From the IMG/VR virus record IMGVR_UViG_3300045256_000062, positions 1-44,359 of that record: 44,359 nt of DNA; one strand, 5' to 3'. Origin of the DNA: a virus. The first letter of the stretch is position 1; each line of letters opens with the position of its first letter. Both the position numbers and the translations under genes were made by a program. The notes beneath the pieces were generated by a model that was given only the letters and a program-made list of their open reading frames with translations, was not told the origin of the DNA and did no database searches. Positions 118 to 44,359 of the stretch are shown here, one piece after another.

Positions 118-123
118 GGTGCC

Positions 124-405: not shown

Positions 406-415
406 AGGGAATCTC

Positions 416-1009: not shown

Positions 1010-1012
1010 AGG

Positions 1013-8443: not shown

Positions 8444-8463
8444 TTAGTCTCCTTCGAGGAAAT

Positions 8464-12426: not shown

Positions 12427-12644
12427 TAGATTTTGAATCCTTTCTTCTTCTGGCCGATGCCGGGAAACTTGCGATGCACGGCGGCTCGCACCTTGGCCTT
12501 TTCGGATGAAGAGCCGAACTGCGAGACGCGGGCCAGTGCGTTTCTCGCGTGCGAAGCGTCGGGAATCGGATACTTGCGCTTGCCGGGCTCGACAAACGTG
12601 CTGGATTTAAGATGCTTGCGCTCCTGATAGGTCAGTCGGCTCAT
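12426..12644 (-). CDS. Small conserved phage protein, 72 aa
   Basis: Basic protein with a pattern (KSSTFVEPGKRKYPIPD followed by HARNALARVSQ and KVRAAVHRKFPG) that I know from many prophage and phage genomes as a small conserved protein near head genes; its function is unknown to me. It ends in KKKGFKI, almost the same tail as the preceding protein (KKRGFKI). It starts within the last bases of that gene and ends at the start of the 110-aa gene. Confidence 0.75.
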   Translation of the reverse strand: MSRLTYQERKHLKSSTFVEPGKRKYPIPDASHARNALARVSQFGSSSEKAKVRAAVHRKFPGIGQKKKGFKI

Positions 12645-12982: not shown

Positions 12983-12985
12983 ATT

Positions 12986-13066
12986 TCAGCCCTTGAGGAT
13001 CTTCTCGAGGCGCTGGATTTCTTTCTTGGTGACCGCCTTGCGCGGACGGCCTGGCTTATTAGGCAT
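12986..13066 (-). CDS. Tiny AT-hook-like basic protein, 26 aa
   Basis: A short open frame (ATG 13066-13064, TGA 12988-12986) that fills the gap between the 87-aa gene and the Cys-rich gene, overlapping the former by 8 nt. The product begins with NKPGRPRK, an AT-hook-like GRP core flanked by basic residues, then a Lys/Glu helix. It may bind DNA. Being so short, its reality rests on its tight fit between neighbours. Confidence 0.45.
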   Translation of the reverse strand: MPNKPGRPRKAVTKKEIQRLEKILKG

Positions 13067-13322
13067 CGGGCTTTTTCTCCATAAGCGGAATCGCTGCTTT
13101 CTCGGCTTCGCTGCGCCACTGGCTGGGCAATACCCTGCGCTTCAGCTTTGGCAGAGGGTCTTTGTCGCGCAGATGGACGTGCGGCAGACCTTCCTTCTGC
13201 AGCAGTGCGTCCTGCCAAAGCCGCAATTCTTCCCTCAGCCGTTCGTTCTCCGCTTCGAGATACGTCAGCCGCGGAAACAGGAAGCGGCGAATCTCGTACA
13301 GGATGGGCCCGAAGCGGCTCAT
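13059..13322 (-). CDS. Small coiled-coil protein, 87 aa
   Basis: Basic protein with a leucine-rich amphipathic helix near residues 20-45 (LEAENERLREELRLWQ), a probable coiled coil, followed by a basic segment. It overlaps the end of terL by 4 nt (ATGA). Unrecognised; it sits with other small genes between terminase and portal. Confidence 0.65.
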   Translation of the reverse strand: MSRFGPILYEIRRFLFPRLTYLEAENERLREELRLWQDALLQKEGLPHVHLRDKDPLPKLKRRVLPSQWRSEAEKAAIPLMEKKPDA

Positions 13323-14773: not shown

Positions 14774-15107
14774 GGAACGCCGAGGGAAGCTCGCCGACCG
14801 CAAGCGCGACATTCACCGTTGCGCCTTCGCTGTTCTTCGGCATGACACCCGTTCTATCCAGCAGCTCGAAGGCGTGCACTGGACTCTTTTTTACTGCCCG
14901 GGAAATCGTCTGAGCAGCTTCCGGCAAAGCCTCGTAAAGTATTGATTTTGCTTGGACTGTTAGCTGGTCAACTTGCGATTCTTCGAGGATTTTGTACACT
15001 GTCGGCTTCGACAGTCCCAAATCTCGAGCAATCTTGGACTTGCGCTCGCCATTCAGGCGCTTGGCGATCACAGCTGTCTTGACCGCGGGAGCCGTTTCAG
15101 CAGCCAT
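14724..15107 (-). CDS. terS: Terminase small subunit, 127 aa
   Basis: DNA-recognition subunit of the packaging terminase. Residues about 20-45 form a helix-turn-helix (KIARDLGLSKPTVYKILEE), followed by a helical middle for oligomerisation and an acidic C-terminus that probably contacts TerL. The ATG (15107-15105) overlaps the stop of the upstream 109-aa gene (TAATG). It is directly upstream of and overlapping terL, the usual arrangement. Resemblance to resolvase-type helix-turn-helix is due to that small domain only. Confidence 0.8.
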   Translation of the reverse strand: MAAETAPAVKTAVIAKRLNGERKSKIARDLGLSKPTVYKILEESQVDQLTVQAKSILYEALPEAAQTISRAVKKSPVHAFELLDRTGVMPKNSEGATVNVALAVGELPSAFHGKAEDSDVITVNQSD

Positions 15108-24108: not shown

Positions 24109-24915
24109 TCATGCCTTCACAAACTTACCGCTTTCGATGCGGTACCAAGTATTAGCTTCGATTCCATCCTCCCCTACGTAGCCAACGACTACACGGTAGC
24201 GGATGCCATCCCAATAAATCGCGGTGATAGCCCCGTTAGCACCGGCCCTAACTCTGCTGTCCCTGCCGCCAACAGCCCATCCGCAGTCTCCGGTTGCTGA
24301 GGCGTGGCCGGAGTTACCGGTGGCGGATGCGTGGCCGCAGTCTCCGGTGGCGGATGCGTGGCCGTAGTCTCCGGTGGCGGATGCGTGGCCGCAGTCGCCG
24401 GTTGCGGATGCGTGGCCGCAGTAGCCGGTGGCGGATGCGTGGCCGTAGTCTCCGGTGGCGGATGCGTGGCCGTAGTCTCCGGTGGCGGATGCGTGGCCGT
24501 AGTCTCCGGTGGCGGATGCGTGGCCGTAGTAGCCGGTGGCTACCTTCTCGAATTTGTCGTCTGGCATCCGAGCGCGTATGAACGCCATTGCCTCGTGCCA
24601 AGTCTCGTAGCATCCGACCACATTGCCTTTTGGGAACTTGACCTTGCCTTCCAGGTCTATGAGTGACGATTCGGCTACTTCTACGACTAGCCAGCGTATT
24701 TTCTCGGCCTGCACCTTGAGCGACCAGTCACCAGCGCCCCACAGCCAGCCGTGCAATCCGTTGCCGCATTCCTTCGTCGGCTCCCAGTCGCTCGCCTCGA
24801 CTGGACCATTTTCCGGCCAAGTGAAGCCGTACGAACTAGACATATCGGCTGCCACTGTGCGAAGTACTAGAACTGTTTCTGGCGCTGTTTTTCGGTCAGT
24901 ACTCTTTTCCTTCAT
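24109..24915 (-). CDS. DUF7666-like domain plus nine GHASATG repeats, 268 aa
   Basis: The N-terminal 125 residues include SYGFTWPENG, CGNGLHGWLWG, WLVVEV and LEGKVKFPKG, a layout I associate with the DUF7666 type. Nine 9-residue units of the form xx-GHASATG follow, where xx is DY, DC, YY, YC or NS, then a tenth divergent unit. The period and composition suggest a beta-solenoid. A C-terminal globular part ends the protein (YWDGIRYRVVVGYVGE). The ATG at 24915 overlaps the upstream stop (ATGA) and is preceded by AAGGGGG. Function unknown; similar repeats are common in phages and prophages. Confidence 0.7.
   Translation of the reverse strand: MKEKSTDRKTAPETVLVLRTVAADMSSSYGFTWPENGPVEASDWEPTKECGNGLHGWLWGAGDWSLKVQAEKIRWLVVEVAESSLIDLEGKVKFPKGNVVGCYETWHEAMAFIRARMPDDKFEKVATGYYGHASATGDYGHASATGDYGHASATGDYGHASATGYCGHASATGDCGHASATGDYGHASATGDCGHASATGNSGHASATGDCGWAVGGRDSRVRAGANGAITAIYWDGIRYRVVVGYVGEDGIEANTWYRIESGKFVKA
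24285..24540. repeat. 27-bp-period tandem repeat (GHASATG units)
   Basis: Nine near-identical 27-bp units plus a partial one inside the gene above. Variation is concentrated in the two codons between GHASATG blocks, mostly a Tyr/Cys alternation from a single base. Confidence 0.9.
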
Positions 24916-25154
24916 GCGACCCCCTTTTGCCGTGTGGCCCTTTGTGGCGGGATCTTCGGCACTGGACACGACCCGCCACATTCGGCTGCGAATGTTACGT
25001 GGACGCCCACCTGCCGCTTTTGCTCTAATCCGATTCGCAGCAAATGCCGAATCTCATCCAGCAGCGACCGCTCTTCCATCTCCGCCAGACTGCGGATTTC
25101 GTCGAGCATTGCTTCTATGACCCTGACGCGCATACAGCTCCACTTTTTGTCCAT
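24912..25154 (-). CDS. Ribbon-helix-helix-type regulator, first gene of the early operon, 80 aa
   Basis: Residues about 8-45 (MRVRVIEAMLDEIRSLAEME followed by a second helix) have the strand-helix-helix layout of Arc/MetJ-type DNA-binding proteins. A Cys pair (CGGSC) and a Pro-rich tail follow. It could bind operators in the 25155-25405 region and regulate its own operon. The ATG at 25154 has GAGG upstream; an internal ATG at 25133 with GGAG is an alternative. Confidence 0.6.
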   Translation of the reverse strand: MDKKWSCMRVRVIEAMLDEIRSLAEMEERSLLDEIRHLLRIGLEQKRQVGVHVTFAAECGGSCPVPKIPPQRATRQKGVA

Positions 25155-25405
25155 CGCTCTGCCTCATTCCCAGCCGGGGGACTGGGAGGGAATTTGGCCC
25201 TGAGCACCCTATGCCAACCACACAACCGCCTGACCGTGCCTCCTGAATCCGCTCTAAATCCTTTGTTTTCCGCACCCCTGTACGGAAAACCAACCAAATC
25301 AAACCTGCTCAACAACACCCAAGATGCGGTACTAAATTCCGCACGTGCGCCAGGTCTAAAGTCCCCGCTACGCGCATACGGAGCAAACCATGCCAAGGGA
25401 AACCC
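25155..25405. promoter_or_regulatory. Divergent control region of the early operon
   Basis: About 250 bp between the minus-strand early operon and the plus-strand 111-aa gene. A perfect inverted repeat is present (listed separately). I find no convincing -35/-10 pair in either direction, which may mean that transcription needs an activator or another sigma factor. Confidence 0.5.
25265..25290. promoter_or_regulatory. Inverted repeat, possible operator
   Basis: GTTTTCCG (25265-25272) and CGGAAAAC (25283-25290) are a perfect 8-bp inverted repeat with a 10-bp centre, which places the half sites on nearly the same DNA face. Ribbon-helix-helix dimers commonly bind such sites; one is encoded next door. 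Confidence 0.5.
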
Positions 25406-26738: not shown

Positions 26739-27443
26739 TCAAAATAGCGAGCAAACCACTGCCCCGCCCACAGCCCCTATTGCCGCGCCCTTTGCGCCCT
26801 GTGAGCCGCCAGCCGCCGCCCCAGCCCCGGCACAGGCGATAACCTTGACCTGCTTGCCAAGCCTGTGAATCCAGTTTCCCCCTTTTGCCGCGGTTAGCGC
26901 TGCGTCCCGCTGGGTCTTGAGGCTGTCTATCTGCTGCTGGGCCAGCTTCGCCTCTGCCGCCCGTTGCTGCTGCACATCGGCCAAATCCGCTTGCGTCTTG
27001 GCTAGGTCCAGCTTGCACGTCTCACAGGCCTGCACATATTCTTTCGCTGCTGGAAAGTCCGCTTGCGGCACAGGAACAGTCGGCAAAGGGTTGGGATTCT
27101 CTTTCGTCGGCGCGGGCGTCACCACCTGCAGCGGTACAGGCAGATTCGCTCGTTGATTGATGAGTGCCAACACCTGAGTCATAGAGCCTTGAAACTGCTT
27201 CTGGAGCGTGGCCGCGTTCTGCTGATACTCCGCATCCCGCGCCTTGAGCTTGGCGTCGAAGTCCGCCTGCATCGCTTTCTGCTGGTCCACAAGCTGCCGC
27301 TGGAACTGTGCTTGGGCATCCTGTGTGGCTTGGTTCTTGGCTTGGACGATTTGCTGGTGAACGTAGGCGGTAGCCGCCAGCAGCGCGAGAATCCCTACCC
27401 CTGCCACTGCCGCGATTCGGGTATGCGTTGAGGACCAAATCAT
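26739..27443 (-). CDS. Membrane-anchored coiled-coil protein, 234 aa
   Basis: N-terminal membrane segment (IAAVAGVGILALLAATAYV), long Gln/Ala-rich coiled coil (residues about 30-90), a Pro-rich linker (PAPTKENPNPLPTVPVPQ), a second coiled coil and a glycine-zipper end (AGAGAAAGG, AIGAVGGAVV). The layout is like an inner-membrane spanin extended by a glycine-rich tail, but no outer-membrane partner is seen. The ATG overlaps the methyltransferase stop (ATGA); the longer frame is ignored. A role in lysis or virion entry is inference. Confidence 0.6.
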   Translation of the reverse strand: MIWSSTHTRIAAVAGVGILALLAATAYVHQQIVQAKNQATQDAQAQFQRQLVDQQKAMQADFDAKLKARDAEYQQNAATLQKQFQGSMTQVLALINQRANLPVPLQVVTPAPTKENPNPLPTVPVPQADFPAAKEYVQACETCKLDLAKTQADLADVQQQRAAEAKLAQQQIDSLKTQRDAALTAAKGGNWIHRLGKQVKVIACAGAGAAAGGSQGAKGAAIGAVGGAVVCSLF

Positions 27444-28117
27444 GTGAAACTCAATACCTCTTGGCTGAGCCGCTTGGCGGCGATTTCGCAATACTTCTCC
27501 TCGATTTCTATACCGATAGCTGGCAGACCATTAAACTTCGCCGCAATCAGCGTTGTTCCGCTGCCGGCAAACGGGTCTAACACGGTTCCTTCTACCCATT
27601 TAGCGACAAGCCAGCGGAGATGCTGCAATCTGCGCGGAGCCGGGTGCTCGCCGTGGCATGGCCGCCCCCATTCTTTGTGCTTTGTCACAATCACTCTCCG
27701 AACATCGCTGCGCGTGCTGGTGTACTCACCACTGATTAGCCGTCGCCCGGGCCGTGATTTAGGCCACTCGCCAAAGACGTACGCCACATCAGCTCCGTAA
27801 AGGCACCGTCCTTTTCTTGTAGGGCAGGCGTAACGTAGCCAGCACAATCGTAGGAATGGAAAAAACTCTGGAACGGCTGATAGAAAACGCGGGTCTGAAT
27901 CGCAGCCAAGGTGAACAATGAGCCTCTTCGCTCGCGGAAGCGCATGGCACATCTCTTTCATTAGCGGCCCGGGCCGCTCCCATCCAATAAGATGCGGAGA
28001 ACTGTTCGGCCAAACCGGATCAGTGAGCACAGTATCTACATTGGCCAGCGTTGGCAGGATCTCGCGGCAATCGCCATGGTAAATGGTGATGCCCTTTTCC
28101 TCGTAGTACGGCTTCAC
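27440..28117 (-). CDS. DNA methyltransferase, beta class, with TDPVW motif IV, 225 aa
   Basis: N-terminal GITIYHGDCREILP, motif IV as LTDPVWP (in place of DPPY) and motif I as TVLDPFAGSGTT near residue 180 give the beta-class order, motif IV before motif I. DPVW occurs in other phage enzymes, as I recall, so it need not be inactive. GTG 28117 overlaps the stop of the 35-aa gene (GTGA). The last 28 residues (AIGIEIEEKYCEIAAKRLSQ and onward) are shared with the second methyltransferase and the remnant at 18311. Target base and site are unknown. Confidence 0.85.
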   Translation of the reverse strand: MKPYYEEKGITIYHGDCREILPTLANVDTVLTDPVWPNSSPHLIGWERPGPLMKEMCHALPRAKRLIVHLGCDSDPRFLSAVPEFFPFLRLCWLRYACPTRKGRCLYGADVAYVFGEWPKSRPGRRLISGEYTSTRSDVRRVIVTKHKEWGRPCHGEHPAPRRLQHLRWLVAKWVEGTVLDPFAGSGTTLIAAKFNGLPAIGIEIEEKYCEIAAKRLSQEVLSFT

Positions 28118-28308: not shown

Positions 28309-28617
28309 TTACTGTCTAAGGCCTTCTGCGCCCCTTTCTTCACAAAGTCGTGCGCGGCTTCCAATGGCGTCGCAGAACTCGGTGGGATGGCCCAACTCAA
28401 GATCACTGTCGAAGATGGTCTCCTTCTTGAGCGTGGCTATGCAATGCACCCGCCAATCGTCTATCTCCTGCTGTTCCAGCTTCTTGCCGTTGACGTGGGC
28501 CACGATGACGGGCTTGTTGGTGATAGTGCAGGATGCGTGCAAAGCTTCGGGTTTCTGCGCGTAAGCGGGAAGGGCTAGAAGGCTACTCACCAGCAGTAGC
28601 TTGTTGAACTTCTTCAT
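28309..28617 (-). CDS. Small secreted protein, 102 aa
   Basis: Clear signal peptide (MKKFNKLLLVSSLLALPAYA), predicted cleavage before Gln. The mature part has three Cys (CTIT, HCIA, FCDA) and a charged middle; the last 25 residues are Arg- and Glu-rich. It starts inside the end of the endolysin gene, 35 nt overlap, suggesting coupling to lysis. A spanin-like or periplasmic role is possible. Unrecognised. Confidence 0.7.
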   Translation of the reverse strand: MKKFNKLLLVSSLLALPAYAQKPEALHASCTITNKPVIVAHVNGKKLEQQEIDDWRVHCIATLKKETIFDSDLELGHPTEFCDAIGSRARLCEERGAEGLRQ

Positions 28618-28972
28618 AATTGGTCACCATCAGCGGGGGATAGACGGTGTTCTTTCTCTGCTGGGCGTGAATGTGCTCGTTGTCAGTGTTGGGATCTTCG
28701 ATAAACGCAAAGAAGTGTTCCGTACCTAATTCGGCCACAATGGCATCCAGGAGGGCTTGCTTGTCGGGGACGTCATGCGTCCGAATGTCGTAGGCGCGGC
28801 CCTTGTGATGAGGATCGTCAACGCCAGAATGCGTTCCGTCGCAGGCAGAAGTAATTGTCACGTCATGCCCGATCTTCTTGCAGGCGGCGTCTATGGCGGC
28901 AAGGATGCGAAACCCTGCTGGCGCTATCACCGTGAACTGCACGCCATCTTTAACGCGGACAACGGGGATCAT
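28583..28972 (-). CDS. M15-type peptidase endolysin, 129 aa
   Basis: Zinc-site pattern of the M15 (VanY/endolysin) group: H55/H56-KGRAYD62 and a C-terminal EHIH (H102). The preceding GTHSGVDDPHH stretch is the usual loop. It would cut peptide cross-links in the cell wall. The ATG at 28972 overlaps the methyltransferase stop (ATGA); the longer open frame is ignored as an overlap. There is no signal peptide, so a holin is needed. Candidate holins are the nearby small membrane proteins. Confidence 0.75.
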   Translation of the reverse strand: MIPVVRVKDGVQFTVIAPAGFRILAAIDAACKKIGHDVTITSACDGTHSGVDDPHHKGRAYDIRTHDVPDKQALLDAIVAELGTEHFFAFIEDPNTDNEHIHAQQRKNTVYPPLMVTNYEEVQQATAGE

Positions 28973-29613
28973 GCGAAGCTCAAAACCTCTTGGCTCAGGC
29001 GTTTGGCGGCTATCTCGCAATACTTCTCTTCGATCTCGATTCCGATGGCGCGACGGCCCAAGTCCTTGGCGGCTCGGAGCGTCGTGCCGCTGCCCATGAA
29101 TGGGTCTAGAACAGTGCCTTGCGGCGTCCAACGCGATTCTAGGCACCACTTCATTAGGGCGATAGGCTTTTGCGTTGGATGTTCTAGCGCTTCGTCGGAA
29201 GCCCGCATCATTCCGTTCCAGAGCCAACGAAACAGCCGGACGCCTTTGACGAAATTGCTCCAAGCAAGCTCGCACCTAGATTGGTCCAAGTCATCCGGGC
29301 GCTCTTTGTCCCATACAAGCCAGCCAGAGGAAACTGGTAAGCGGTCAGCATAATAATTGGCTCCCCATAAGATGCAAGGCCACTGGAGCCAGAATGTCGG
29401 GTCAAATGGCTTATCGTCATCATGCACTGGCGGATAATCCCTGCAAGCGGCAAGAACACCCCTGCCACGTTCGGCGTAGTTTGTAGGGTGAGCAATCCCA
29501 TACGGCGGGTCAGTCAGCACCAAGTCCACTGGCTCGAGCTGCGGTAGAATCTCCCTGCAATCCCCGTGGTAAATCGTGATGCCTGCCTTGCTGTCCTCGT
29601 AATAGGGCTTCAT
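28969..29613 (-). CDS. N6-adenine-type DNA methyltransferase, beta class, 214 aa
   Basis: Motif IV is a clean LTDPPYG near residue 33 and motif I is TVLDPFMGSGTT near residue 170, in beta-class order. The N-terminus (MKPYYEDS, GITIYHGDCREILP) and the C-terminus (RRAIGIEIEEKYCEI and LSQEVLSFA) match those of the 225-aa enzyme, while the middle differs: the two are paralogues with different target-recognition parts. It has its own promoter and probably a leaderless message. DPPY suggests adenine N6 methylation. Confidence 0.9.
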   Translation of the reverse strand: MKPYYEDSKAGITIYHGDCREILPQLEPVDLVLTDPPYGIAHPTNYAERGRGVLAACRDYPPVHDDDKPFDPTFWLQWPCILWGANYYADRLPVSSGWLVWDKERPDDLDQSRCELAWSNFVKGVRLFRWLWNGMMRASDEALEHPTQKPIALMKWCLESRWTPQGTVLDPFMGSGTTLRAAKDLGRRAIGIEIEEKYCEIAAKRLSQEVLSFA

Positions 29614-32064: not shown

Positions 32065-32538
32065 TTATCTAGAATTCAACCGATTATTCTTGACGGCAGA
32101 ACGGCCCTCGATCAGCGCCGCAGCTATAGGGAGGGACCATCTGCCCAAGAGCCGCCACGCCAAATGCGGGTCATCGTGCGATTGCTGCCACGCGAGCACG
32201 CTGCAAGTGAAGCCGACGCCGAAACCCACGCTGCTGAGAGCCGCAATAGATCCGTTATCGGGATTCCCACCGATGAATCCGTTGGTCTCCCGCAGCCCGC
32301 TTCTGCGCTGCGATGTGGTCCACGCATCCGCCCCGACTGCTGCGGCCTGAATTGCAATGCCCGTCCAGAACCACTTATCCGTGTACCAGTGCTTTGGGCT
32401 GGACTTCGAAGCAAAAGCGAGCTTCCCTGCCGGAACAGGAGCCAGACGCATGGCGTCAGGCTTGGGCTGGGGCGCGTCGGGCAGTTGCGCCAGCGCGAGC
32501 GAAGGCAGAAGCAGGAGAAGCAGGGCAGTGAGTTTCAT
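32065..32538 (-). CDS. Exported small protein with LPDAP motif, 157 aa
   Basis: Signal peptide (MKLTALLLLLLPSLALA), predicted cleavage before Gln, then LPDAPQP, a motif I link with Acidobacteriota exported proteins. The mature part has a hydrophobic stretch (FWTGIAIQAAAVGADAWTT) and later membrane-like segments. It resembles the plus-strand protein at 37954 in layout. The ATG overlaps the tailspike stop (TGATG). It may act in the periplasm or membrane; function unknown. Confidence 0.7.
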   Translation of the reverse strand: MKLTALLLLLLPSLALAQLPDAPQPKPDAMRLAPVPAGKLAFASKSSPKHWYTDKWFWTGIAIQAAAVGADAWTTSQRRSGLRETNGFIGGNPDNGSIAALSSVGFGVGFTCSVLAWQQSHDDPHLAWRLLGRWSLPIAAALIEGRSAVKNNRLNSR

Positions 32539-34607
32539 CAGTTTGTAACCACAACGGTGGCTTTGATATTCGCTAGGGTTTCAGCCGCCTGGGTGGTGAA
32601 CTGAATTGAGATAAGATCGCCTGCCGCATATGCGACGGTGTGCGTGGTGTCGCTGCAACTCGTGGCCGTTCCCGTAGTGCAGGTCATCGTAGTTGTGCTG
32701 CCATTCTTTAGAACGGTGAACACGCCAGAGGAAGCATTGACGCCGCCCGTTCCCGCAGTGACGATAAGACTTTGCAACGTTCCCGCGCTGGTCATGATCT
32801 TCCCTGCGCCCAGGGTGGTGCTGGTGCAGGTGCTTGCGGTGACGTTGGAGCCTGTTCCATAAAGTCCGAGCGTGGATGCTGCCGAAGCTGTTCCCGTGCA
32901 AACGCCCTTGATGCTTTCTCCACCTTGCGTCGAGTAGGTGAGATTCGTTCCGGTATTTAGGATCGGGCCAATGAACTTGTTGCCGCCAAGGTCAATGAAG
33001 GTTCCCGCCGCTCCTGTGGCGTTGATTGCGCCGTTCGTGCTTCCTCCCGTAAGGCAGGAACCCGAAGCGGACACCGTGCCGCCACCAGAGCCGAAATTGA
33101 TTCCCCACACCGTAGCGGCGGGAGCGGCGCATCCAGCAGATGCGCTGTTGTACCCCCACCCTTGCAGCACGGCGCGGCCCCCGCTTTGCACTTGGATATG
33201 GACGTTGCTTCCGCTGTCAAGTGGATAATCGGCATTCCCCACGTACACCCCGCCGTTCACAAGCACGGAACGGCTCGCGCCCCACCACTGATTCGCATGT
33301 CCGTAGCAGATTCCTGATGAAGTCACCTGAAACGCGATGGCTCCCGTAACGGGATCGGCGGAGTACGAATCGTAAAAAGCGATGTTGGGACCGCCGCACA
33401 CCACTTGCGAAACTCCGTTTCCTCCGAACGCATCCACTTGCAGGTTGACGGCAATGTCTCCTTGGCCGTTGAACGCCACTCCAGTGGAAAGCCCGGTGGC
33501 GCTGGTCAGCCAGTGATTGAAGCCGACATTGTAGAGGTAGGAATCCCCTCCGACCGTGGCAATGGAAGTTGCTGGAGAGGTGGAAATGCCGCTGAACGTT
33601 TGGTTGAGTCCGTTGATGCTGAAATCCTTCCAAATGGTATTGATGAATCCAGGCGAAGCTGGCGAGAAAAAGCATCCATTGGAGTTGCAAGTGGTGAAGT
33701 CGAAGTTGGGCGTCGGAACAAAGATCGTAACGCCGATTCCCTGACCGTCGATCTCCCATCCGGTAGCGAATTGACTTTCTGCGTTTTTGCAAGTCGCGGG
33801 GCCGGTTTTATCGCTCAGAATGCCCTTCTGCACCATGATCATTCCTGCGGGCCATACTATTTTTCCGCAATTCCCAAGTGCATATAAGGCCGAAGCCGCC
33901 GCAAGTACCGCCGTCGTGTCATTTGTTCCCCAAACAAAGATGCCGTTTCCGGTGGCTGCCCCGGTGGAAGTGGTGGAGCACGTTCCGTGCGTGGCATCAA
34001 TGAACGTGAAGGTTCCCAAGGGAATCAGATTTGTGGTGATATGTCCAAAACACGCTTTTCCGGTATCGGTAGATGCAAAAGGCGGGTCGCTTGCGGTGAT
34101 GGTGACAGTTACCGGATTCGCTCCACTAGACCAAGTGGCGTCTTGGACAAACTTCGTGTCCGCCTTAATGCCGTAGGTGGAGCTTCCCGCGTCAATGCAC
34201 CCGGGACCGGAGCATCCGCCGCCGCTGCCGCCTCCGCCCCCCGACACGCTGAACCAGCTATTGCTCGTCGCGTCGTACTGGAACTGGCAGACGGTCGTGG
34301 CATTCGCCGTGGTGCTAACCGTGCATGATGATGTGAATCCCCCGCCCGCATAGCTCCAGCCGGACACGGCATGGCCGCCGCTTGCGTCCTGCGTGAAGAT
34401 GATGGTCAGCAGCGTACCTCCCGCAGGCGTCTGGTCCGAGCTGACATTGATGGCCGTCACGGCCTGGTTCACCAGCACCTTGAAGGACTGCGTTTGGCTA
34501 ACGTCCACGTTGATCGTTCCGCTTGAGATCGGCAGGGATTGCTGCGCTGACAGGCTCCCGCCCGTCCCCAGCAGAACGGCGAGGAAAAACAGCAGTTTGA
34601 TTTTCAT
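32538..34607 (-). CDS. Tailspike-like beta-helix protein with N-terminal signal peptide, 689 aa
   Basis: The first 22 residues (MKIKLLFFLAVLLGTGG, then SLSA and Gln) form a Sec-type signal peptide, unusual for a virion protein. Residues about 25-130 are beta-rich, followed by a Gly/Ser hinge (GGGGGSGGG). Residues about 150-560 have repeating short beta segments with Asn, Gly and Ser as in pectate-lyase-type tailspikes (TNDTTAVLAAASALYALGNCG, then KIVWPAG). The end is a small domain. It sits with the second such protein at 35367. It probably binds or degrades a surface polysaccharide. Confidence 0.7.
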   Translation of the reverse strand: MKIKLLFFLAVLLGTGGSLSAQQSLPISSGTINVDVSQTQSFKVLVNQAVTAINVSSDQTPAGGTLLTIIFTQDASGGHAVSGWSYAGGGFTSSCTVSTTANATTVCQFQYDATSNSWFSVSGGGGGSGGGCSGPGCIDAGSSTYGIKADTKFVQDATWSSGANPVTVTITASDPPFASTDTGKACFGHITTNLIPLGTFTFIDATHGTCSTTSTGAATGNGIFVWGTNDTTAVLAAASALYALGNCGKIVWPAGMIMVQKGILSDKTGPATCKNAESQFATGWEIDGQGIGVTIFVPTPNFDFTTCNSNGCFFSPASPGFINTIWKDFSINGLNQTFSGISTSPATSIATVGGDSYLYNVGFNHWLTSATGLSTGVAFNGQGDIAVNLQVDAFGGNGVSQVVCGGPNIAFYDSYSADPVTGAIAFQVTSSGICYGHANQWWGASRSVLVNGGVYVGNADYPLDSGSNVHIQVQSGGRAVLQGWGYNSASAGCAAPAATVWGINFGSGGGTVSASGSCLTGGSTNGAINATGAAGTFIDLGGNKFIGPILNTGTNLTYSTQGGESIKGVCTGTASAASTLGLYGTGSNVTASTCTSTTLGAGKIMTSAGTLQSLIVTAGTGGVNASSGVFTVLKNGSTTTMTCTTGTATSCSDTTHTVAYAAGDLISIQFTTQAAETLANIKATVVVTN

Positions 34608-34611
34608 GGGA

Positions 34612-35097
34612 TTACCTGATGACTCTCCAGTTGATGACGATAGCCGTGCCCGTCTGCGATGCCGAAGTGGCGTTGCAGCGGGTGAAGTTCACGTTGCCGC
34701 TAGTGACGTAGGGCGAGACGTGCATGAGGGCGTCTGCGCTTCCCGGCGCTGTCGCATAGCTCCATTCAATGGCGTCGGTAGTAGCGACTCCCGTCGCGGC
34801 TGTAGTCACTGCCGTTTGGCAAGTGTTGCTGGTTACGGCTCCCGAGGTCAGTGTGCTAGTGCCAGAGGCGATAACTAGCCCATTGGCGTGAGAACCCTCT
34901 GCGACAATCTGGCTATTCCACAATAGTCGGTCGCTCGAATCCTTGCCCAAGAACACGTTTCCCGAATTGGCGTTGTTGCGCCAGCCCACATTATCGCTTG
35001 AAGCGAGCAACACCACTCCCGACGTGGATGGATTCGCGGAGGCCGACTGGAAATTGTTTGCTGTCAGCAGTCCCTTAAACGTGGTGCTGGATGACAT
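34612..35097 (-). CDS. Tail-fibre-associated protein with WRVIR C-terminal domain, 161 aa
   Basis: Thr/Ser/Ala-rich protein. The C-terminal 65 residues (TAATGVATTDAIEWSYATAP, then YVTSGNVNFTRCN and INWRVIR) closely match those of the 90-aa protein upstream. The N-terminus (FKGLLTANNFQSA) looks like a fibre tip or chaperone-type start. It lies between two tailspike-like genes and probably belongs to the same fibre. Confidence 0.65.
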   Translation of the reverse strand: MSSSTTFKGLLTANNFQSASANPSTSGVVLLASSDNVGWRNNANSGNVFLGKDSSDRLLWNSQIVAEGSHANGLVIASGTSTLTSGAVTSNTCQTAVTTAATGVATTDAIEWSYATAPGSADALMHVSPYVTSGNVNFTRCNATSASQTGTAIVINWRVIR

Positions 35098-35100
35098 GGA

Positions 35101-35373
35101 TTACCTCACCACCCGCCAATTCAGGGTTGCCGCATTCGGGGTGACCGAGGCGGCTGTCGGATTGCAGTACTGGAAATTCACGTTCCCCGCTGTCGGCCAC
35201 GAACTCACCACAAGCTCGGCTGGATTCGCTGCGGGAGCGGCATTGAAAGCCCACGAGATGCTGTCCGTGGTCGTCACGCCCGTGGCTGCGACGGTGACCG
35301 TGGTGCCGCAGGACCCGGCAGCGCCCGTCGCGCTCGCGGCGTAACCCAAGTAGCACGGCAGGCGCTTCACCAT
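35101..35373 (-). CDS. WRVVR-domain protein, 90 aa
   Basis: Nearly all of the protein is the same domain as the end of the 161-aa protein: TVAATGVTTTDSISWAFNAA, GNVNFQYCN and LNWRVVR. ATG 35373 overlaps the stop of the large tailspike gene; a GTG at 35370 with a GTGA overlap is an alternative. A duplicated fibre or host-binding module is likely. Confidence 0.65.
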   Translation of the reverse strand: MVKRLPCYLGYAASATGAAGSCGTTVTVAATGVTTTDSISWAFNAAPAANPAELVVSSWPTAGNVNFQYCNPTAASVTPNAATLNWRVVR

Positions 35374-37955
35374 ACACGGCAAAAGCTCCCGCGCTTGATT
35401 GTTCCGTTGTTTGTAGTGAACTGCGCCATGATGTTGATGACTGAGCTTGAGGCATTAGAAGGCTGCTCAATCATGCCGAAAATATCAAAGTTGAATACCG
35501 TGTTTGCCGCCGATGGCGTGAAGGCCCCTCCGATAGCTGTCGCTGTTGTGGTGGTCAAGGTTGGCAGATTATCCGAAAGCAAAGCGCTGGTGCTCGTGTA
35601 GACTACCTTTTTTACGTAGATGTTTGTCGGCGCTACGGTTACATCCTGAATGCCAAACTGGTCTGAGGCTGCTGCCGTTGCCTGAGAATATGAACCGTGA
35701 CATTCAAAAGCAACGTTTAGGGCGGTATTCGCCGGCATTGTCCAGCTCAAACCTGGGATATTTGTCAGCGATGCGCCTGCTGTGATGGTTTGGTCTGCGG
35801 TGACGCGGTAAGTGCCGTAAACGGCATCCAAGTCAACGGCTGCTACTGAACCAACTACGTTTTCCGCTACGCCATTATTGTTATTAATTTTCAAGCGGTG
35901 CGCTGTGGAATCGGCCCAAAGCATGCTATTACTTGCCAGGCCAACCGGCCCTGTGGTTTCTCCAATTTGTATCCGGTTTGCTCCTAAATTAAGGTTGTTT
36001 CCTAAACCGGTCGGCACTTGATATTTGTCCCCACTGCCATTCCCGGAGCCGCCCCATACTAAGCTGCTGGCATCTAATGTTCCGGCTCCGCCTATGTGGG
36101 TTGTAGCTTGATAGGAATTGCCCACGATTTGCGAGCTTACCAGTGTTACGCCAGAGTCTATGGAAATGTCGCTTGTGCCATTGGCTGTAGGGCCTTGGAA
36201 ATTTATGCCCGATAGATTCAGAAAACTGCCGGATGTCGAAATTTCAATCCCGGCATTGGTGTTGCCCCAGTCCGATACTCCAGTTATGGTTGTACCGGGC
36301 AAGGCGGCGTTCAGAACAATTCCGCCGCCCGTGCCGCGATTCCGTATGTAGGAGCCTCCTGTTACCGTCAAACGGCTATTCCCGCCAGTCCCAGCATTCA
36401 AACCATCCCCGGCGTTATCTTCGCTTTGCACTCCGTTCAGGCTCACGTCCGTTGCTTCCGTGGTATTAAGTGTGCCTCCGGACACTGTGACCCCATTTGC
36501 TCCATTAGTATCAAACTGGCCACCTACGATGTTGATGAATTGGCCGCTGTCGATCTGAAGTCCGCTCAGTGAATTCCCCCAAGAGTGGGCGTTTATTAGC
36601 GTCTGGTGGAAACCATGAATGGCAATTCCGTTACTTGTGGAGTTAGTTGCCCAGACATCCTGCACTACGTTATGCGAAGTCGTGATGTAATTCTCGATGG
36701 AATTGTCCGAAGGATTGAATGCCCTGATACCAAGGGCGTGAATCCGGGAAGAATACAAGCGGGAAAGATAGCAGCGCCCTGCCCCGCTTTGGCAAGTTAA
36801 ATCCTCAACAGTGCCGTCCAGTGCGTTGTTAATGAGCACGGCTGCACCGGAAGCATTGCCTCCGCCCTGGATACCTGGTTTCCCTTTAGCTACAACTCCC
36901 CGAATAAGAAAATTCTTGGCCCAGATAAATTTACTTATCTGCGCACCGCGCAAAGACACTGAATAGAGATTTTCCAGCGGCCTGACCAGGGGAACTGTGG
37001 TTCCTCCCACATAGGAAGATGCGATTTGATTTACCTCGGCAAAGCGCGTGTCAAAAATGGCGATTTCATCTCCGGCAGACAAGCCCGTGCCGGATGCTAC
37101 AGTAATGCTGGTTGCTCCCAATGTACCGTCAGCCGTTAGATTGGACTGAACAGTAGCATTCCCGCTGTCTACTTCGATTAGCGGCGCAAGCGTGGCGTTT
37201 GAACTTGCGTAGGTTGTTTGCTGGTTGTTTAGCGTGCAGCCGGGTTCACAGATTATCTTGAACCCCGTCAAAGAAGTAAAAAGCCATGGAGCAGGGAAAT
37301 TGTATGTGCCTGGGAATAGACGGTAAGTGTGATTTGAAGATGGCGTTAGCGTGGTTGTCATTGTACCACCACCGAATATCCATACCTCTCCTGGCGTTGC
37401 CCCAAGGTCGGAATCGGCAGCATTTATCCATGCACCCATATCCGTGCCAGTCCATCCGGGTGTGTTGGCCGCATCGACACAACGCACTGCCCCTTGTAGG
37501 TTCTTGCAATTCAGCGGCCCCCTGAACGTGTTGTTCCCGGTGAGGGTGTTGTTTCCGCTCGAGAGCACGTCTCCGCCGCCGCTGCCCGCCACCGTGGCCG
37601 TGAACGACTGGCCCGTGATCCCGTTGCCCGTGACCGTGTAGGTGTAGCGGCCGGGAGCGGCATATACGAATACTTGCCCGTTTCCGTCGCTTGTCTGCGG
37701 ATTCGTTGTTGGCGTGGTGAGGGCCGGATCTGAATAGACGGTGACCGTAGGAGAACATGGAATGCCTGTTGCACCATAAGCGCAGACGGTGACTGTTGCG
37801 CCAGCCAAGGGCCTGCCGGTAGGACCGAATACCGTGATGGCTCCCCCACTGATTGAGCCGCCCTGAGCGAGTGCCACGCCGGCGCAAGCGGCGAATAGGG
37901 CACAGAACCTAAGTCCTATTCCCATTAATCCATTTTTGAGATAGTGTCTCGGCAT
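35367..37955 (-). CDS. Large tailspike-like beta-helix protein with signal peptide, 862 aa
   Basis: The N-terminus has a signal peptide ending ACAGVALA before Gln. Residues about 35-125 form a carboxypeptidase-regulatory-like or Ig domain (GRPLAGATVTVCA, YAAPGRYTYTVTG). Residues about 180-640 carry a long right-handed beta-helix with Asn/Gly-rich coils (NTSLNG-type and ENYITTSHN-type units). The end is a fibre-type domain. An in-frame ATG at 37925 gives a shorter signal region. It starts back-to-back with the plus-strand gene at 37954. A polysaccharide depolymerase or adhesin is likely. Confidence 0.7.
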   Translation of the reverse strand: MPRHYLKNGLMGIGLRFCALFAACAGVALAQGGSISGGAITVFGPTGRPLAGATVTVCAYGATGIPCSPTVTVYSDPALTTPTTNPQTSDGNGQVFVYAAPGRYTYTVTGNGITGQSFTATVAGSGGGDVLSSGNNTLTGNNTFRGPLNCKNLQGAVRCVDAANTPGWTGTDMGAWINAADSDLGATPGEVWIFGGGTMTTTLTPSSNHTYRLFPGTYNFPAPWLFTSLTGFKIICEPGCTLNNQQTTYASSNATLAPLIEVDSGNATVQSNLTADGTLGATSITVASGTGLSAGDEIAIFDTRFAEVNQIASSYVGGTTVPLVRPLENLYSVSLRGAQISKFIWAKNFLIRGVVAKGKPGIQGGGNASGAAVLINNALDGTVEDLTCQSGAGRCYLSRLYSSRIHALGIRAFNPSDNSIENYITTSHNVVQDVWATNSTSNGIAIHGFHQTLINAHSWGNSLSGLQIDSGQFINIVGGQFDTNGANGVTVSGGTLNTTEATDVSLNGVQSEDNAGDGLNAGTGGNSRLTVTGGSYIRNRGTGGGIVLNAALPGTTITGVSDWGNTNAGIEISTSGSFLNLSGINFQGPTANGTSDISIDSGVTLVSSQIVGNSYQATTHIGGAGTLDASSLVWGGSGNGSGDKYQVPTGLGNNLNLGANRIQIGETTGPVGLASNSMLWADSTAHRLKINNNNGVAENVVGSVAAVDLDAVYGTYRVTADQTITAGASLTNIPGLSWTMPANTALNVAFECHGSYSQATAAASDQFGIQDVTVAPTNIYVKKVVYTSTSALLSDNLPTLTTTTATAIGGAFTPSAANTVFNFDIFGMIEQPSNASSSVINIMAQFTTNNGTIKRGSFCRVW

Positions 37956-38394
37956 GAAATACCTAGCCTTTCTAGTTGTTTTCCTTGCAATTCCCTGCTG
38001 CGCTCAGGACCATAAGCCGATCAGGAAAGAAAAAGCCTGGATCGCGCTTACAGGCCTGTCCGCAGCCTCAAGCCTTTCGGACGCCATAGCTACCATGAGA
38101 AACCGCGACCGCGGGGACCATCTGATAGCCACCTATGGCACCTACGGATGCGGGCCTACGGCTCAGCAGTACTGCGGTTTCACCGAGCACAACCCCATAG
38201 AACGCCCGTTCACTTCCCTGCCTAAACCTGCGTACTATTCCTGGAAACTGGGTGAAAGCGCTCTCAGTTCCTACGTCGGCCTTCGCATGAAGCGCAGCCA
38301 TCGCTGGTATCGGCATATTTGGTGGCTGCCGCAGACCGTGAACGTTGCGAGCGGAATCGTTGGGGCGGTGTACAATACAGCACATGGCGGTTAG
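37954..38394 (+). CDS. Exported plus-strand protein, 146 aa
   Basis: Signal peptide (MKYLAFLVVFLAIPCCA), predicted cleavage before Gln. The mature part has WIALTGLSAASSLSDAIAT, a Cys pair (CGPTAQQYC), EHNPIERPF and a helical C-terminus (YYSWKLGESALSSYVGL, VNVASGIVGAVYN). The layout resembles the 157-aa protein at 32065. It faces away from the tailspike gene, with start codons overlapping in the CATG. No clear promoter or ribosome-binding site is seen. It may be an independently acquired accessory gene. Confidence 0.7.
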   Translation: MKYLAFLVVFLAIPCCAQDHKPIRKEKAWIALTGLSAASSLSDAIATMRNRDRGDHLIATYGTYGCGPTAQQYCGFTEHNPIERPFTSLPKPAYYSWKLGESALSSYVGLRMKRSHRWYRHIWWLPQTVNVASGIVGAVYNTAHGG

Positions 38395-39979: not shown

Positions 39980-41473
39980 TTATTCGACTACCTGGGCTCC
40001 GCGGCTCTTTGCCGCTTCAACCTTGTCAGCGGGAACGTTCCACGTCCTGCCATCGGGGGTTTTCATCTGCACTGTGCCAGCGCCCTTCTTCGGCGGCCGC
40101 ATGGCCTTTTCGTTCACGTACTGCTGTTCCGCATTCAGCGCCGCAGCGAGGGTGTCCTTCGACATCTTTCCGGTGTTCGCCAGGTCCTCGAAGTGCTCCA
40201 TTAGCTGCTCGCCGCCGCGAGACCCGACGTGCGCCTGCATCAGCGCCGTCGCCAGCAATCCGTTGACGTGAGTTCTGAGCGCGACGTATCGCGGATCTGC
40301 GGTTCCGATTTTCCCCGCAAGAAACTCATTCCATCGCGGTGACAGCGCTTCAAGTTCTCCGGGCTTGAATTGCGCGAGGTCCTTCTGCGCCAGATCGAAC
40401 AGTCCGCCCGGACTCGTCAACTGCCGTGCCACTACTACTTTGGCGGATTCCGAGCTGGGCAGTGACGTGACGCCCGTGGCTCCTGCGCTTCGCAATTCCT
40501 CGGGCGTTCCGGCAACTTGCGTACCATCCGGCAAGGACCCTACCGACATATTCGGCACTTTGCCCTTGGCTACGATTCTCGGACCTGCGGGAGCTGTTGG
40601 AGCCTGTCCGCCCTTTCCAGAAGGTGCGGGGCTGCCCGTTCCGCCAATCACGGGAGAAGTCGTAGTTGTCTTGGGCAGCGCGATGATGTTTCCATCCTCA
40701 TCCTGCTTGTATTCCGTGGTGCTGGAAGTCTTGGACATCATGGAAGAAATGGCGTTTACATCCACGCGCCCCACTTCCTGCCCGAATTGATTTAGCACGT
40801 GGTAAAACGGTTTTCTAGTTTGCGGGTCAAGGTCTGGGATGTACTTCTTCGCTCCGGGCACCATGTTTCCAGTGAGCGGCTTGGTGTCGATCAGGTTGTT
40901 GTTGTCATCCCACACGCCTTCGAGACCCTTGGAACGCAGCGTGCTTTCGATCTGGTTGCGCTTCTGCTGATTGCCGAGTCCAACCTTCGTAAGGTCAATG
41001 GTAGGCCGCTGCGAGAAGTAATCCGCTTGAGCGGAATGCAGGCGATTGAGTATGTCCTGATTTTGCAGTTCACGATTCTGATTGATGAGTCCGGCGAGGA
41101 GATTGTACTGCTGCATAAGCGGCTGAATCCTTCGCTGGCGCTGGAAATCTCCCGTAATCACGCTGCCCAAGGTGGGATTGCGTGCGCTGACAAAGGCCCC
41201 GAGAAGGGCTCGTGCTGTTCCGATGGGCTTCGGAGTCAGTGCCGCTCTTAGCTGATTTCCGGTGTTGACGAAATCCTGATACTCCTGCGTTCCCTGAAGC
41301 GAAGGCTGCGGGCTCACCAGCGCTGCGGCCAGATCAGAAGCCCCTCGATAACCCGGCACGGTGTCAAATGCTGGCGCAGCGGGAGCCTCTTCGTCTAGGC
41401 CGCTATCGCCATAGGCCACATCCCATACCGGATTGTTGAATCGAAACCTTGGGTCTAGTGCTGGATTAGCCAT
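39980..41473 (-). CDS. Probable internal virion protein, 497 aa
   Basis: Long helical, Gln-rich protein. The first 60 residues are Pro/Ala-rich (PRFRFNNPVWDVAYG), a long helix follows (QRRIQPLMQQYNLLAGLINQ), and the end has a helical block (NAEQQYVNEKAMRPPKK) and a GTVQMKTPDGRTWNVP segment like that of peptidoglycan- or virion-associated proteins. It begins 7 nt after the small virion gene at the join. A fragment of its start is repeated at position 1-117. An injection or tail-core role is likely. Confidence 0.65.
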   Translation of the reverse strand: MANPALDPRFRFNNPVWDVAYGDSGLDEEAPAAPAFDTVPGYRGASDLAAALVSPQPSLQGTQEYQDFVNTGNQLRAALTPKPIGTARALLGAFVSARNPTLGSVITGDFQRQRRIQPLMQQYNLLAGLINQNRELQNQDILNRLHSAQADYFSQRPTIDLTKVGLGNQQKRNQIESTLRSKGLEGVWDDNNNLIDTKPLTGNMVPGAKKYIPDLDPQTRKPFYHVLNQFGQEVGRVDVNAISSMMSKTSSTTEYKQDEDGNIIALPKTTTTSPVIGGTGSPAPSGKGGQAPTAPAGPRIVAKGKVPNMSVGSLPDGTQVAGTPEELRSAGATGVTSLPSSESAKVVVARQLTSPGGLFDLAQKDLAQFKPGELEALSPRWNEFLAGKIGTADPRYVALRTHVNGLLATALMQAHVGSRGGEQLMEHFEDLANTGKMSKDTLAAALNAEQQYVNEKAMRPPKKGAGTVQMKTPDGRTWNVPADKVEAAKSRGAQVVE

Positions 41474-41479
41474 GGTGCC

Positions 41480-41761
41480 TCACACGAGGAAACTTGCTAT
41501 TCTCCCGAGCCCCCCGAGAAATCCGCCACGGCCGGCCTGCCCCGCGAGACCCGCAAGAACCGGATTCCTTCCCGGGCCTCCGTACTGGTTTATCCCGCCG
41601 CGGAATGCCTGCATGAAGCTCGGGCGGTCAGGCTGCTGGTTATCGGGCTGAAACCCTCCGCTTGCGTCGAGGCCCGATCCGAAATCAGGGGCTGGGCCAT
41701 AGGTAACATCATTCTGGCGAATCCGCGGTGCGCCGAGCGATGACAAGAAGCTGAATGCCAT
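41480..41761 (-). CDS. Second copy of the 93-aa small virion protein
   Basis: Same as 124-405, offset by 41356, with the same AGGAGAT site. One gene in the circular unit, seen twice because of the terminal overlap. Confidence 0.7.
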   Translation of the reverse strand: MAFSFLSSLGAPRIRQNDVTYGPAPDFGSGLDASGGFQPDNQQPDRPSFMQAFRGGINQYGGPGRNPVLAGLAGQAGRGGFLGGLGRIASFLV

Positions 41762-41771
41762 AGGGAATCTC

Positions 41772-42365
41772 CTAGTGAAGACCGAACAAACTTCCAAGGC
41801 CCGAGCCAAGCGAAGACATGAACGTATCGCCGAATCCTGGATGGCCCTTGACGATTCCGTAGGTGCCGACGCTCTGGCCCACAAGCTGGTTCTGAAGCTG
41901 GTTCAGGCTGTTCAGGAAACTGGTGTCCACGCCGTAGAGTTGCGCGATGCCTTGCAAGCCGACGAGCTTGCGCCTCAGCGCCTCATCCGCGAATGTTTTC
42001 TGGTTCTGCAATTCCTGCTGCGCGAAGTCCCTTCCCTTGCTCCGCGCCAGTTCTCCCATGAACGACCCGAATCCTGCGGAGTTTCCCGTCCGCGCCATTC
42101 TCCTGCTGGCTGCGTCCTGAGCCGCGCCATAAGATGAGCCAAGCGCCCCAAGGGTGCTTTGCTCGATAGCGCTCTTTTCCTGCGGAGAGTATCCGGAATT
42201 GAGCAGCGAAGAATAGCCCGGCATGAGCGCCCCATACTCCGAGTTGCGCTGGCCGATTGCAGGAGTTCCCAGCGAGGAAAGGAAGCTCGACTGCTGCCCA
42301 AGGGTTTTATCCACTCCCTTGCGGCTGCCCGAATCGAATGAAATTCCTGGATAGAATCCGCCCAT
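41772..42365 (-). CDS. Second copy of the 197-aa virion protein
   Basis: Same as 416-1009; I see no differences in the translation. A single gene in the circular unit. Confidence 0.75.
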   Translation of the reverse strand: MGGFYPGISFDSGSRKGVDKTLGQQSSFLSSLGTPAIGQRNSEYGALMPGYSSLLNSGYSPQEKSAIEQSTLGALGSSYGAAQDAASRRMARTGNSAGFGSFMGELARSKGRDFAQQELQNQKTFADEALRRKLVGLQGIAQLYGVDTSFLNSLNQLQNQLVGQSVGTYGIVKGHPGFGDTFMSSLGSGLGSLFGLH

Positions 42366-42368
42366 AGG

Positions 42369-42902
42369 TTACTCCACGCTTACAATTCTGAGTTGCCCCG
42401 CATTCGGGGCGTGATAGCCGTACCCGGGAATCTGCGACTGCCCGCTGCCGCTTGTAGGAGAAAGGCTCGGCCCGGAACTTGTAGTGGAAAGGTTGCCGGG
42501 CGTCACGGCGGTCGGGGGACTGCCGAACGTGATCTTGTTGCTGACTCCCCCGAGCTTGGTGCTCTTGTACCAACGCCAATAGGTCGTTAGTCCCGCGAGC
42601 GTGGTGGTGCGGTAGTTCCTGACGGCACCAAGCGAAATCACATGGGCATCGGCGAAAGAAACAACCGTTGCATATTCGAGGAAGTACTCTTCCCCGGCCT
42701 GCGGATGCCTGTCTGTGATCTGCACGTCTATCACGCCGTTCGTTCCGGTGACGTTGATTCCTCCCTGCGCCATGGGAGGAGCAATGCCTCCGAGCTGCGC
42801 GGTCATGGTATTGATGTACTGCTGCATCAGCAGCAAATCCTCATAGAGTCCGGGATTGCTGTCGCGCACCGAAAGAATGTTCTTGAGCGCCAGAGGCTTC
42901 AC
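42369..42902 (-). CDS. Second copy of the 177-aa structural protein
   Basis: Same as 1013-1546; I see no differences in the translation. A single gene in the circular unit. Confidence 0.7.
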   Translation of the reverse strand: MKPLALKNILSVRDSNPGLYEDLLLMQQYINTMTAQLGGIAPPMAQGGINVTGTNGVIDVQITDRHPQAGEEYFLEYATVVSFADAHVISLGAVRNYRTTTLAGLTTYWRWYKSTKLGGVSNKITFGSPPTAVTPGNLSTTSSGPSLSPTSGSGQSQIPGYGYHAPNAGQLRIVSVE

Positions 42903-44359
42903 GCGTTTATGCCTCGCACCTGCGCGAACCTTGAAGGCGTGATGTAGAGCGAGAAACCCTGCAGGCTGAAGAAGTCTCCTGCGGCATCCGTTCCGAACTT
43001 TACTGCCATGCGGTAGCCCTGCTTCTGGATTTGCCGCTCCATGTTGGTGAAGCCATTCTGCGACAGTGTCCAGCTGCGAATGACCGTCTTATTGGTCTGG
43101 TCGCCGCGGAACAGAGTCAGGTTGCAGCTGCCCGCTCCGACTATGTTCGCCACCACATAGCCGAAATTCAGCCGCACGCTGTCCTGCGCGTATCCGCTCT
43201 GCCAGTAGGAATTGATGGCCGCGCCGTCGTCGCTGTGCACGGTGTAGGTCGTGTCGAGCTGGTAGATCGCTCCGGTTCCCGCGCCGTTCCCGAGAAACAA
43301 TTGTTGCGTTCCATCGTCGCGCAGCACGAGGGCCATGGAGTTGACGGAGATGGCCCATGGAGCCCACTTCCTCTGCCCTTCCCCGAATCCTTCGACGTAA
43401 TCCATCGTGAGAATCTTGTTGGGCGTCGTGGCCGCTCCGAACGGAGCCGCGACGTAGATTCGCTTTCTCTTGGTGTCCACGGTCACGTTGATGAGATGGC
43501 CGTAGGTCCAGTTGATCGAATCCCACGTCGGCTGAATCTCTTTGCTGAGCTTGTTTTCCTCGCCGAGCGTTCCGCCGTCGAAGAAGTAGAGTCCCTCCTG
43601 CGAGGCGATCACCGCCCACTCGTCTCCGAGTCCCACTCCGCGAACCGAAGGCGTTCCGACCTTTGCTGAAATCTGCTGGATGGTCCACGCACTCGGCTCG
43701 TTCTGCCCGTCATCCGCCGTGGCATAGAGGCTTCGTTCCTTGGAAAAGTAGAGTATGTTCCTGAGCACAAAGCCCGAAGTGACTCTCGTGCCGTCGCCTT
43801 GGGCTACTTGCAGGAATCCAGCAACGCCGTCGAAACTTTCCGGGTCTTCCGATCCCGATGAGCGGACCACGGAAGGGTCAACATCCGGGGAGCTTGATGG
43901 ATAGATTTCAAGGCAATCAATCAGGAATGCGCCGTTGTTTGTCGGCGTGCTGTCGGCATAGATTTGCAGCACAAGGTCCGATGGAATAGTGGTCTGCGCG
44001 GTCAGCAGCGTGGCTGTAAACTCCTGATACCAGGTGGCCAGCTGCGAAGGAGTGACGGAAATTCCGGTTGTGGTGAATCCTCCGGTGGCGCTGTGCGCGT
44101 TGATATGAAGGGTGCCGGCAGCCAGCGTGCTGTTCTTTGCGATTCTTGCCCTGATACTATAAGCCGTGTTCGGGCTAAGCACGGGATTCCCGAGATAGTC
44201 CCGATAGAGCGTCTGGGCAATCTTTCCCCGCGTTACCGTGGCTCCGTCTCCGACAATCGCGTAAGCATCGCCGAACACTACGGGATAGCCGGAGGCGTTC
44301 GCCGAAGCGCCGCCCGCGCTTGAGGTCGTGTCCTGCACCCATCCAAACGGGAAGTTGGG
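42899..44359 (-). CDS. Second copy of the large tail gene, cut by window edge
   Basis: The C-terminal half of the 983-aa tail protein, running off the window end. One residue differs from the first copy: Asp in place of Asn in the short segment before GATVTRG (base 44248 versus 2892). The first copy is complete at 1543-4494. Confidence 0.9.
   Translation of the reverse strand, partial: PNFPFGWVQDTTSSAGGASANASGYPVVFGDAYAIVGDGATVTRGKIAQTLYRDYLGNPVLSPNTAYSIRARIAKNSTLAAGTLHINAHSATGGFTTTGISVTPSQLATWYQEFTATLLTAQTTIPSDLVLQIYADSTPTNNGAFLIDCLEIYPSSSPDVDPSVVRSSGSEDPESFDGVAGFLQVAQGDGTRVTSGFVLRNILYFSKERSLYATADDGQNEPSAWTIQQISAKVGTPSVRGVGLGDEWAVIASQEGLYFFDGGTLGEENKLSKEIQPTWDSINWTYGHLINVTVDTKRKRIYVAAPFGAATTPNKILTMDYVEGFGEGQRKWAPWAISVNSMALVLRDDGTQQLFLGNGAGTGAIYQLDTTYTVHSDDGAAINSYWQSGYAQDSVRLNFGYVVANIVGAGSCNLTLFRGDQTNKTVIRSWTLSQNGFTNMERQIQKQGYRMAVKFGTDAAGDFFSLQGFSLYITPSRFAQVRGINA

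Follow-up and report, generated by a model that had tools for sequence, protein, structure and literature searches.

Tailspike-type proteins with predicted Sec signal peptides in a tailed phage very likely infecting Acidobacteriota

Gene content of the spike region

The analysed DNA, from a soil virus (IMG/VR virus record IMGVR_UViG_3300045256_000062; the whole stretch of 44,359 nucleotides is referred to as the window) carries the features listed below, where a slash marks a predicted cleavage site.

7154-8443, minus strand: major head protein
13319-14812, minus strand: terminase large subunit (TerL)
28309..28617, minus strand: 102-aa signal-bearing protein (..PAYA/QKPE, by the signal scorer)
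32065..32538, minus strand: 157-aa signal-bearing hydrophobic protein (..LALA/QLPDAP), starting on the stop codon of the 689-aa gene
32538..34607, minus strand: 689-aa predicted exported tailspike (ORF; signal score 7.95; AF2 model and fold search)
32541..32915, minus strand: C1q-like C-terminal tip of the 689-aa protein, with four conserved cysteines
32919..34217, minus strand: parallel beta-helix body of the 689-aa protein, about residues 131-563 (VIA-align)
34545..34607, minus strand: predicted signal peptide of the 689-aa protein, 21 codons (..SLSA/QQS, by the scorer)
34612..35097, minus strand: 161-aa ORF without a signal, homologous to the C-terminal region of the 664-aa spike of locus L001 (phage G001); 54% identity over 81% to G001
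35101..35382, minus strand: 93-aa signal-less ORF, a second tip-like piece; 69% identity over 77% to G001
35367..37955, minus strand: 862-aa predicted exported fibre/tailspike-type protein (ORF; signal score 11.1; homologues keep the signal)
37611..37847, minus strand: N-terminal CarboxypepD-like domain of the 862-aa protein, with the cysteine pair C58/C67
37866..37955, minus strand: predicted signal peptide of the 862-aa protein, 30 codons (..VALA/QGG, by the scorer)
37954..38394, plus strand: 146-aa signal-bearing protein (..PCCA/QDHK), divergent from the 862-aa gene

The 161-aa ORF is likely to be a detached tip cassette, and the 157-aa protein is possibly a partner of the spike. Relatives of the latter come after the spike gene in three loci (L001, L002 and L004). 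The divergent 862-aa and 146-aa genes share the palindrome CATG (37953-37956) at their starts and hence have zero intergenic space; in L001 an opposite-strand 146-aa gene (65% identity) likewise lies between the spikes, and two partial relatives occur in an Acidiferrum genome. Homology of the 146-aa and 157-aa families was considered but not supported (hhalign probability 8%). The genes were called by a simple procedure without a trained gene finder, and some of the compared phage records are incomplete.

Source genome and host

The first 3003 bases of the window recur at its end (1-3003 and 41357-44359, offset 41356) as a direct repeat with 3001 of 3003 positions identical, the two mismatches aside, and the true genome length is hence about 41.4 kb. 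The source of the repeat is circular permutation or the assembly of a terminally redundant genome. A tyrosine integrase was not found within the window. Many Salmonella phages are among the relatives of the window terminase found in the phage collection. Among GTDB genomes, the first 30 loci listed all belong to Acidobacteriota, the best of them with 52-54% identity. As the listed GTDB matches of the terminase fall in Acidobacteriota, this is very likely the host group, in agreement with the acidobacterial link made in the initial annotation.

Signal peptides of the window proteins

The initial annotation described both large ORFs as starting with Sec signal peptides, which is unexpected in a tailed phage, as tailed-phage morphogenesis is understood to be a cytoplasmic pathway. 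In place of SignalP we used a home-made weight matrix derived from 49 signal peptides of E. coli, which in leave-one-out trials placed the cleavage site correctly for 45 of the 49. The N-termini of the 862-aa and 689-aa proteins scored 11.1 and 7.95, ranking first and fourth, respectively, among 249 window ORFs, far above their shuffled versions, which matched the 862-aa score in 0-0.06% of trials and the 689-aa score in about 0.4%; this description thus holds. Both spikes have the charged n-region, hydrophobic core and A-x-A-like site of Sec/signal peptidase I substrates. The predicted cut follows MPRHYLKNGLMGIGLRFCALFAACAGVALA and precedes QGG in the 862-aa protein, and follows MKIKLLFFLAVLLGTGGSLSA and precedes QQS in the 689-aa one, so that glutamine occupies the predicted +1 position, as it does in all five signal-bearing window proteins (862, 689, 157, 146 and 102 aa). 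The matrix misses some signals that were spotted by eye only, namely those of L014, the 810-aa protein of G010, the 833-aa and 949-aa proteins of G016 and the 397-aa protein of G005.

An SD-like AGG lies 6-7 nt from the start codon of both spike ORFs, and either candidate start of the 862-aa ORF, M1 or M11, retains the signal. Were export only partial, the virion would be furnished by another product, made from a downstream start and lacking the signal. In both genes GTG and TTG codons do follow the signal (GTG27 and TTG50 in the 862-aa ORF; GTG34, 44, 46 and 50 in the 689-aa ORF), but none of these in-frame starts has a good SD, and in an unsystematic look at the relatives the start position was not obviously conserved; we consider partial export very improbable. 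Use of a downstream start instead of the signal region, which the initial annotation had named as a possible refutation, is improbable on the same grounds, as good ribosome-binding sites are lacking at these codons.

Folds of the two spikes

The AF2 model of the 689-aa protein, built from 12 sequences, has a mean pLDDT of 65, with values of 70-90 across most parts of the beta-helix core. In Foldseek and VIA-align comparisons the body groups with parallel beta-helix tailspikes and with enzymes that act on polysaccharides (Z about 20-24; about 290 residues aligned with tailspikes at an rmsd of about 3), and the tip resembles C1q/TNF-like domains. As modelled, the body is thus a tailspike-type parallel beta-helix, and together with the relatives described below this agrees with the earlier assignment to tailspike-type proteins. 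The fold is shared with the tailspikes of P22-type podophages (Sf6, HK620), gp12 of phi29 and K2-2 TSP, which lack signal peptides and undergo cytoplasmic assembly, whereas the window spikes have a Sec signal and many cysteines.

The same fold also occurs in secreted bacterial alginate epimerases and polygalacturonases, and the 689-aa body is as similar to these. This fits the main rival account, in which export, cleavage and disulfide bonding take place but the spikes never enter virions and act instead in the periplasm, at the cell surface or in the surrounding medium, where they would degrade or bind polysaccharide, releasing progeny from exopolysaccharide or excluding other phages. Unlike the bacterial enzymes, however, the window proteins are encoded in a late phage gene cluster and appear to have phage-type N-terminal and tip domains.

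The AF2 model of the 862-aa protein, based on three sequences, has a pLDDT of 36 and does not resolve a beta-helix. Used as the sole query, this protein retrieved no relatives from IMG/VR or the phage collection. Searches of Pfam, PHROGs and PDB sequences yielded no useful family for either spike, and for the tip domain of the 689-aa protein neither GTDB genomes nor the phage collection gave a match.

Conserved signals and divergent spikes in related phages

Phage G001 is related to the window in its major capsid protein (88% identity), portal-like protein (83%) and TerL (80%), and identity is 71-88% for most of the head and tail proteins, with the exception of a 205-aa ORF (50%). The spikes, in contrast, are mosaic and about 42% identical, and the counterpart of the 862-aa protein is alignable over 21% of the length only. 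They are the variable, mosaic genes of the genome and seem to diverge in the manner of receptor-binding proteins. The signals are nevertheless retained in G001 on both spikes, on the 146-aa gene and on the 157-aa counterpart, and are preserved among homologues with only 33-46% identity. In particular, the homologues of the 862-aa protein in L001 (664 aa) and G002 (612 aa) keep both the signal and the A/QGG site, although the signal sequence itself differs.

A profile search with the C-terminal tip of the 689-aa spike, a sampling blind to the N-terminus, retrieved 24 IMG/VR loci. Among the distinct tip-sharing families with an intact 5' end, a signal and glutamine at +1 were observed in all except L018 and L024/L025 (in L014 by eye, with a low score). 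A comparison with other phages had been proposed in the initial annotation, and it indicates that the pattern is general.

In whole phage records, large proteins of fibre-like composition nearly all bear signals, several of them recognised by eye after the scorer had missed them. In eight of nine records no large signal-less fibre-like protein is evident by composition. The exceptions are a cysteine-free 450-aa fibre of G007 and small pieces such as the 161-aa protein of the window. The scarcity, in most of these phages, of further large fibre-like proteins speaks against purely secreted spikes, as does their variation of the receptor-binding type. On the other hand, the same G007 has a 752-aa predicted exported protein that matches pectate lyase, as would suit a secreted enzyme, and its separate signal-less fibre may be the one used on its virion; G016 has a 754-aa protein with a Laminin_G_3 domain, and the signal-less 161-aa and 93-aa tip-like ORFs of the window could serve on the virion. 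These observations favour secreted spikes or count against spikes that join virions.

Domains behind the signals

In the 528-aa protein of G008, the post-signal domain matches the N-termini of tail proteins from other phages (E of 1e-13 for the best); the signal immediately precedes this domain, which in the tailspike of Xanthomonas phage PBR31 and in similar proteins begins no more than a few residues after the start. For the 862-aa protein, the N-terminal domain aligns with a second family of this kind, in which the signal-less L196 matches the N-termini of tail fibres and tailspikes; a profile of this domain made from nine sequences was too variable for scanning. The domains behind the signals are thus apparently related to the N-terminal domains of ordinary signal-less tailspikes and tail fibres. 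Unlike the signal-bearing spikes, the tailspikes of PBR31 and of Sulfitobacter phage phiGT1 start directly with the related domain, which is free of cysteine; in general, the signal-less relatives start at the domain itself and lack the cysteine pair.

If the N-termini were left uncleaved, the spikes would remain cytoplasmic and follow the usual tail assembly, with the hydrophobic helix anchoring them in the virion or meeting a membrane at infection. The normally cytoplasmic assembly of tailed phages agrees with this, but the start of the signal-less relatives right at the anchor domain does not.

Glutamine at +1

In these counts the cleavage site was chosen automatically by a matrix that ignores the mature side. 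Glutamine is found at +1 in 19 of 30 phage signals and in 12 of 39 signals from three Acidobacteriota genomes, compared with a glutamine content of about 4% in mature sequences, 2 of 12 in E. coli and 0 of 6 in other TerL loci, mostly from Clostridia. By host genome, the samples are small (Acidiferrum, 6 of 11; G017, host contigs alone, 0 of 5). The Acidobacteriota signals from G018 and G020 (L142-L161, L179-L191) are enriched for glutamine at +1, and the count of 12 of 39 includes G017. Glutamine at +1 thus appears to be a habit of the Acidobacteriota host, similar to the Q-rule and shared by the phage signals. Its preservation across families in the same form as in the host's own proteins is a further argument against uncleaved N-termini. 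The paper describing the Q-rule in Bacteroidetes makes no mention of Acidobacteria (PMC5837995). The plant-type glutaminyl cyclase PF05096 was not found in five Acidobacteriota genomes.

Cysteines in the mature proteins

For ORFs of at least 240 aa, with parity counted where at least two cysteines were present, an even number of cysteines was observed in 22 of 25 mature signal-bearing phage proteins (p=8e-5), against 35 of 75 signal-less ones; the excess persisted without orthologues (19 of 22, p=4e-4). The mature signal-bearing set, which includes a few doubtful signal calls such as the G012 ORF 8195-9844, is also richer in cysteine than the signal-less phage proteins (2.4% vs 1.2%, p=4e-7). 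Within the first 110 residues of the mature N-terminal part, two or more cysteines occur in 10 of 11 signal-bearing proteins and in 0 of 10 signal-less ones, the latter being matches to two query domains (p=3e-5, with kinship ignored). The signal-less set includes the fibre of G007, whose genome also encodes two predicted exported proteins with 16 and 19 cysteines.

The cysteines provide a test independent of the signal features, and its outcome is consistent with export. Chance hydrophobic N-termini are ruled out by the shuffles, the conservation and this test. Even counts and added cysteine pairs would also be unexpected if the spikes folded in the cytoplasm, and we consider uncleaved, cytoplasmic spikes unlikely.

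Export, folding and attachment of the spikes

Given the signal features, the host-type cleavage site, the even cysteine counts and the cysteine pairs added to an otherwise ordinary domain, export, cleavage and oxidative folding are the most economical explanation. The spikes would be made as pre-proteins and directed to the host Sec translocon, signal peptidase I would cut them, leaving glutamine at +1, and the mature proteins would fold in the oxidising periplasm with the formation of disulfide bonds. Export and cleavage are well supported by these sequence features, and disulfides in the mature spikes are probable.

At lysis, the spikes would meet virions built in the cytoplasm and attach by their N-terminal domains, in a late arming step. 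P22-type tailspikes bind heads last and spontaneously. The retained N-terminal domains, the variation resembling that of receptor-binding proteins and the small number of other large fibre-like proteins suggest that the spikes may join virions at or after lysis. Of the roles listed in the initial annotation for exported spikes, addition to virions after lysis fits best, as the post-signal domains are related to the N-termini of tail fibres and tailspikes, and the spike genes are variable and mosaic. The export and cysteine evidence fits purely secreted spikes equally well, but the proteins apparently retain N-terminal domains of virion-type tail fibres, and we regard purely secreted spikes as a serious though rather doubtful alternative. 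The complete account, with Sec-routed, periplasm-folded, oxidised spikes joining virions at or after lysis, seems to us evenly balanced between right and wrong. Its extension to a guild of Acidobacteriota phages, with capsid and tail coming from the cytoplasm, disulfide-bonded spikes from the periplasm and the infectious particle complete only at lysis, is tentative and slightly more open to doubt.

In the open-licence literature searched, we found neither Sec export of tailspikes nor natural arming after lysis described. Phages of Porphyromonas gingivalis have exported genes that follow the Q-rule and are of unknown function (PMC10367356); as predicted for the window spikes, their products are phage-encoded signal peptidase I substrates with glutamine at +1, following the Q-rule of Bacteroidetes (PMC5837995), but they belong to Bacteroidetes phages, whereas here the proteins are tailspikes, of Acidobacteriota phages. 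The endolysin Lys44 of phage fOg44 is Sec-exported via a signal peptide (PMC6116005), being a tailed-phage protein that uses host Sec, as predicted here, but it is a lysis enzyme rather than a spike.

If the account is correct, virions of a large, mostly uncultured group of phages can be finished outside the cytoplasm, and their spikes can use disulfides; a lysing cell could also shed free spikes acting on exopolysaccharide or on neighbours. The combination of a signal peptide, glutamine at +1, even cysteines and an anchor-type domain is offered as a sequence signature and a possible host marker in soil viromes, and in practice such spikes should be expressed as the mature form under oxidising conditions.

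Other features of the phage genomes

Signal-bearing proteins of about 280 aa with fibre-like composition recur in the related phages (G002, 24331-25194; G008, 12155-13144; G010, 32618-33466; G012, 167-1015), and in some of them signal-bearing proteins of about this size lie near the terminase gene. In L004 (5435-6336) the signal-bearing 5' part enters the tip sequence out of frame and most of the spike body appears to be gone, through either an assembly collapse or a real deletion. In the window, two methylase-type ORFs (27440-28117, which matches Pfam N6_N4_Mtase, and 28969-29613) have a nearly identical C-terminal sequence (GIEIEEKYCEIAAKRLSQEVLSF), and a 290-aa protein (24109-24981) consists of DUF7666 followed by a weak collagen-like repeat.
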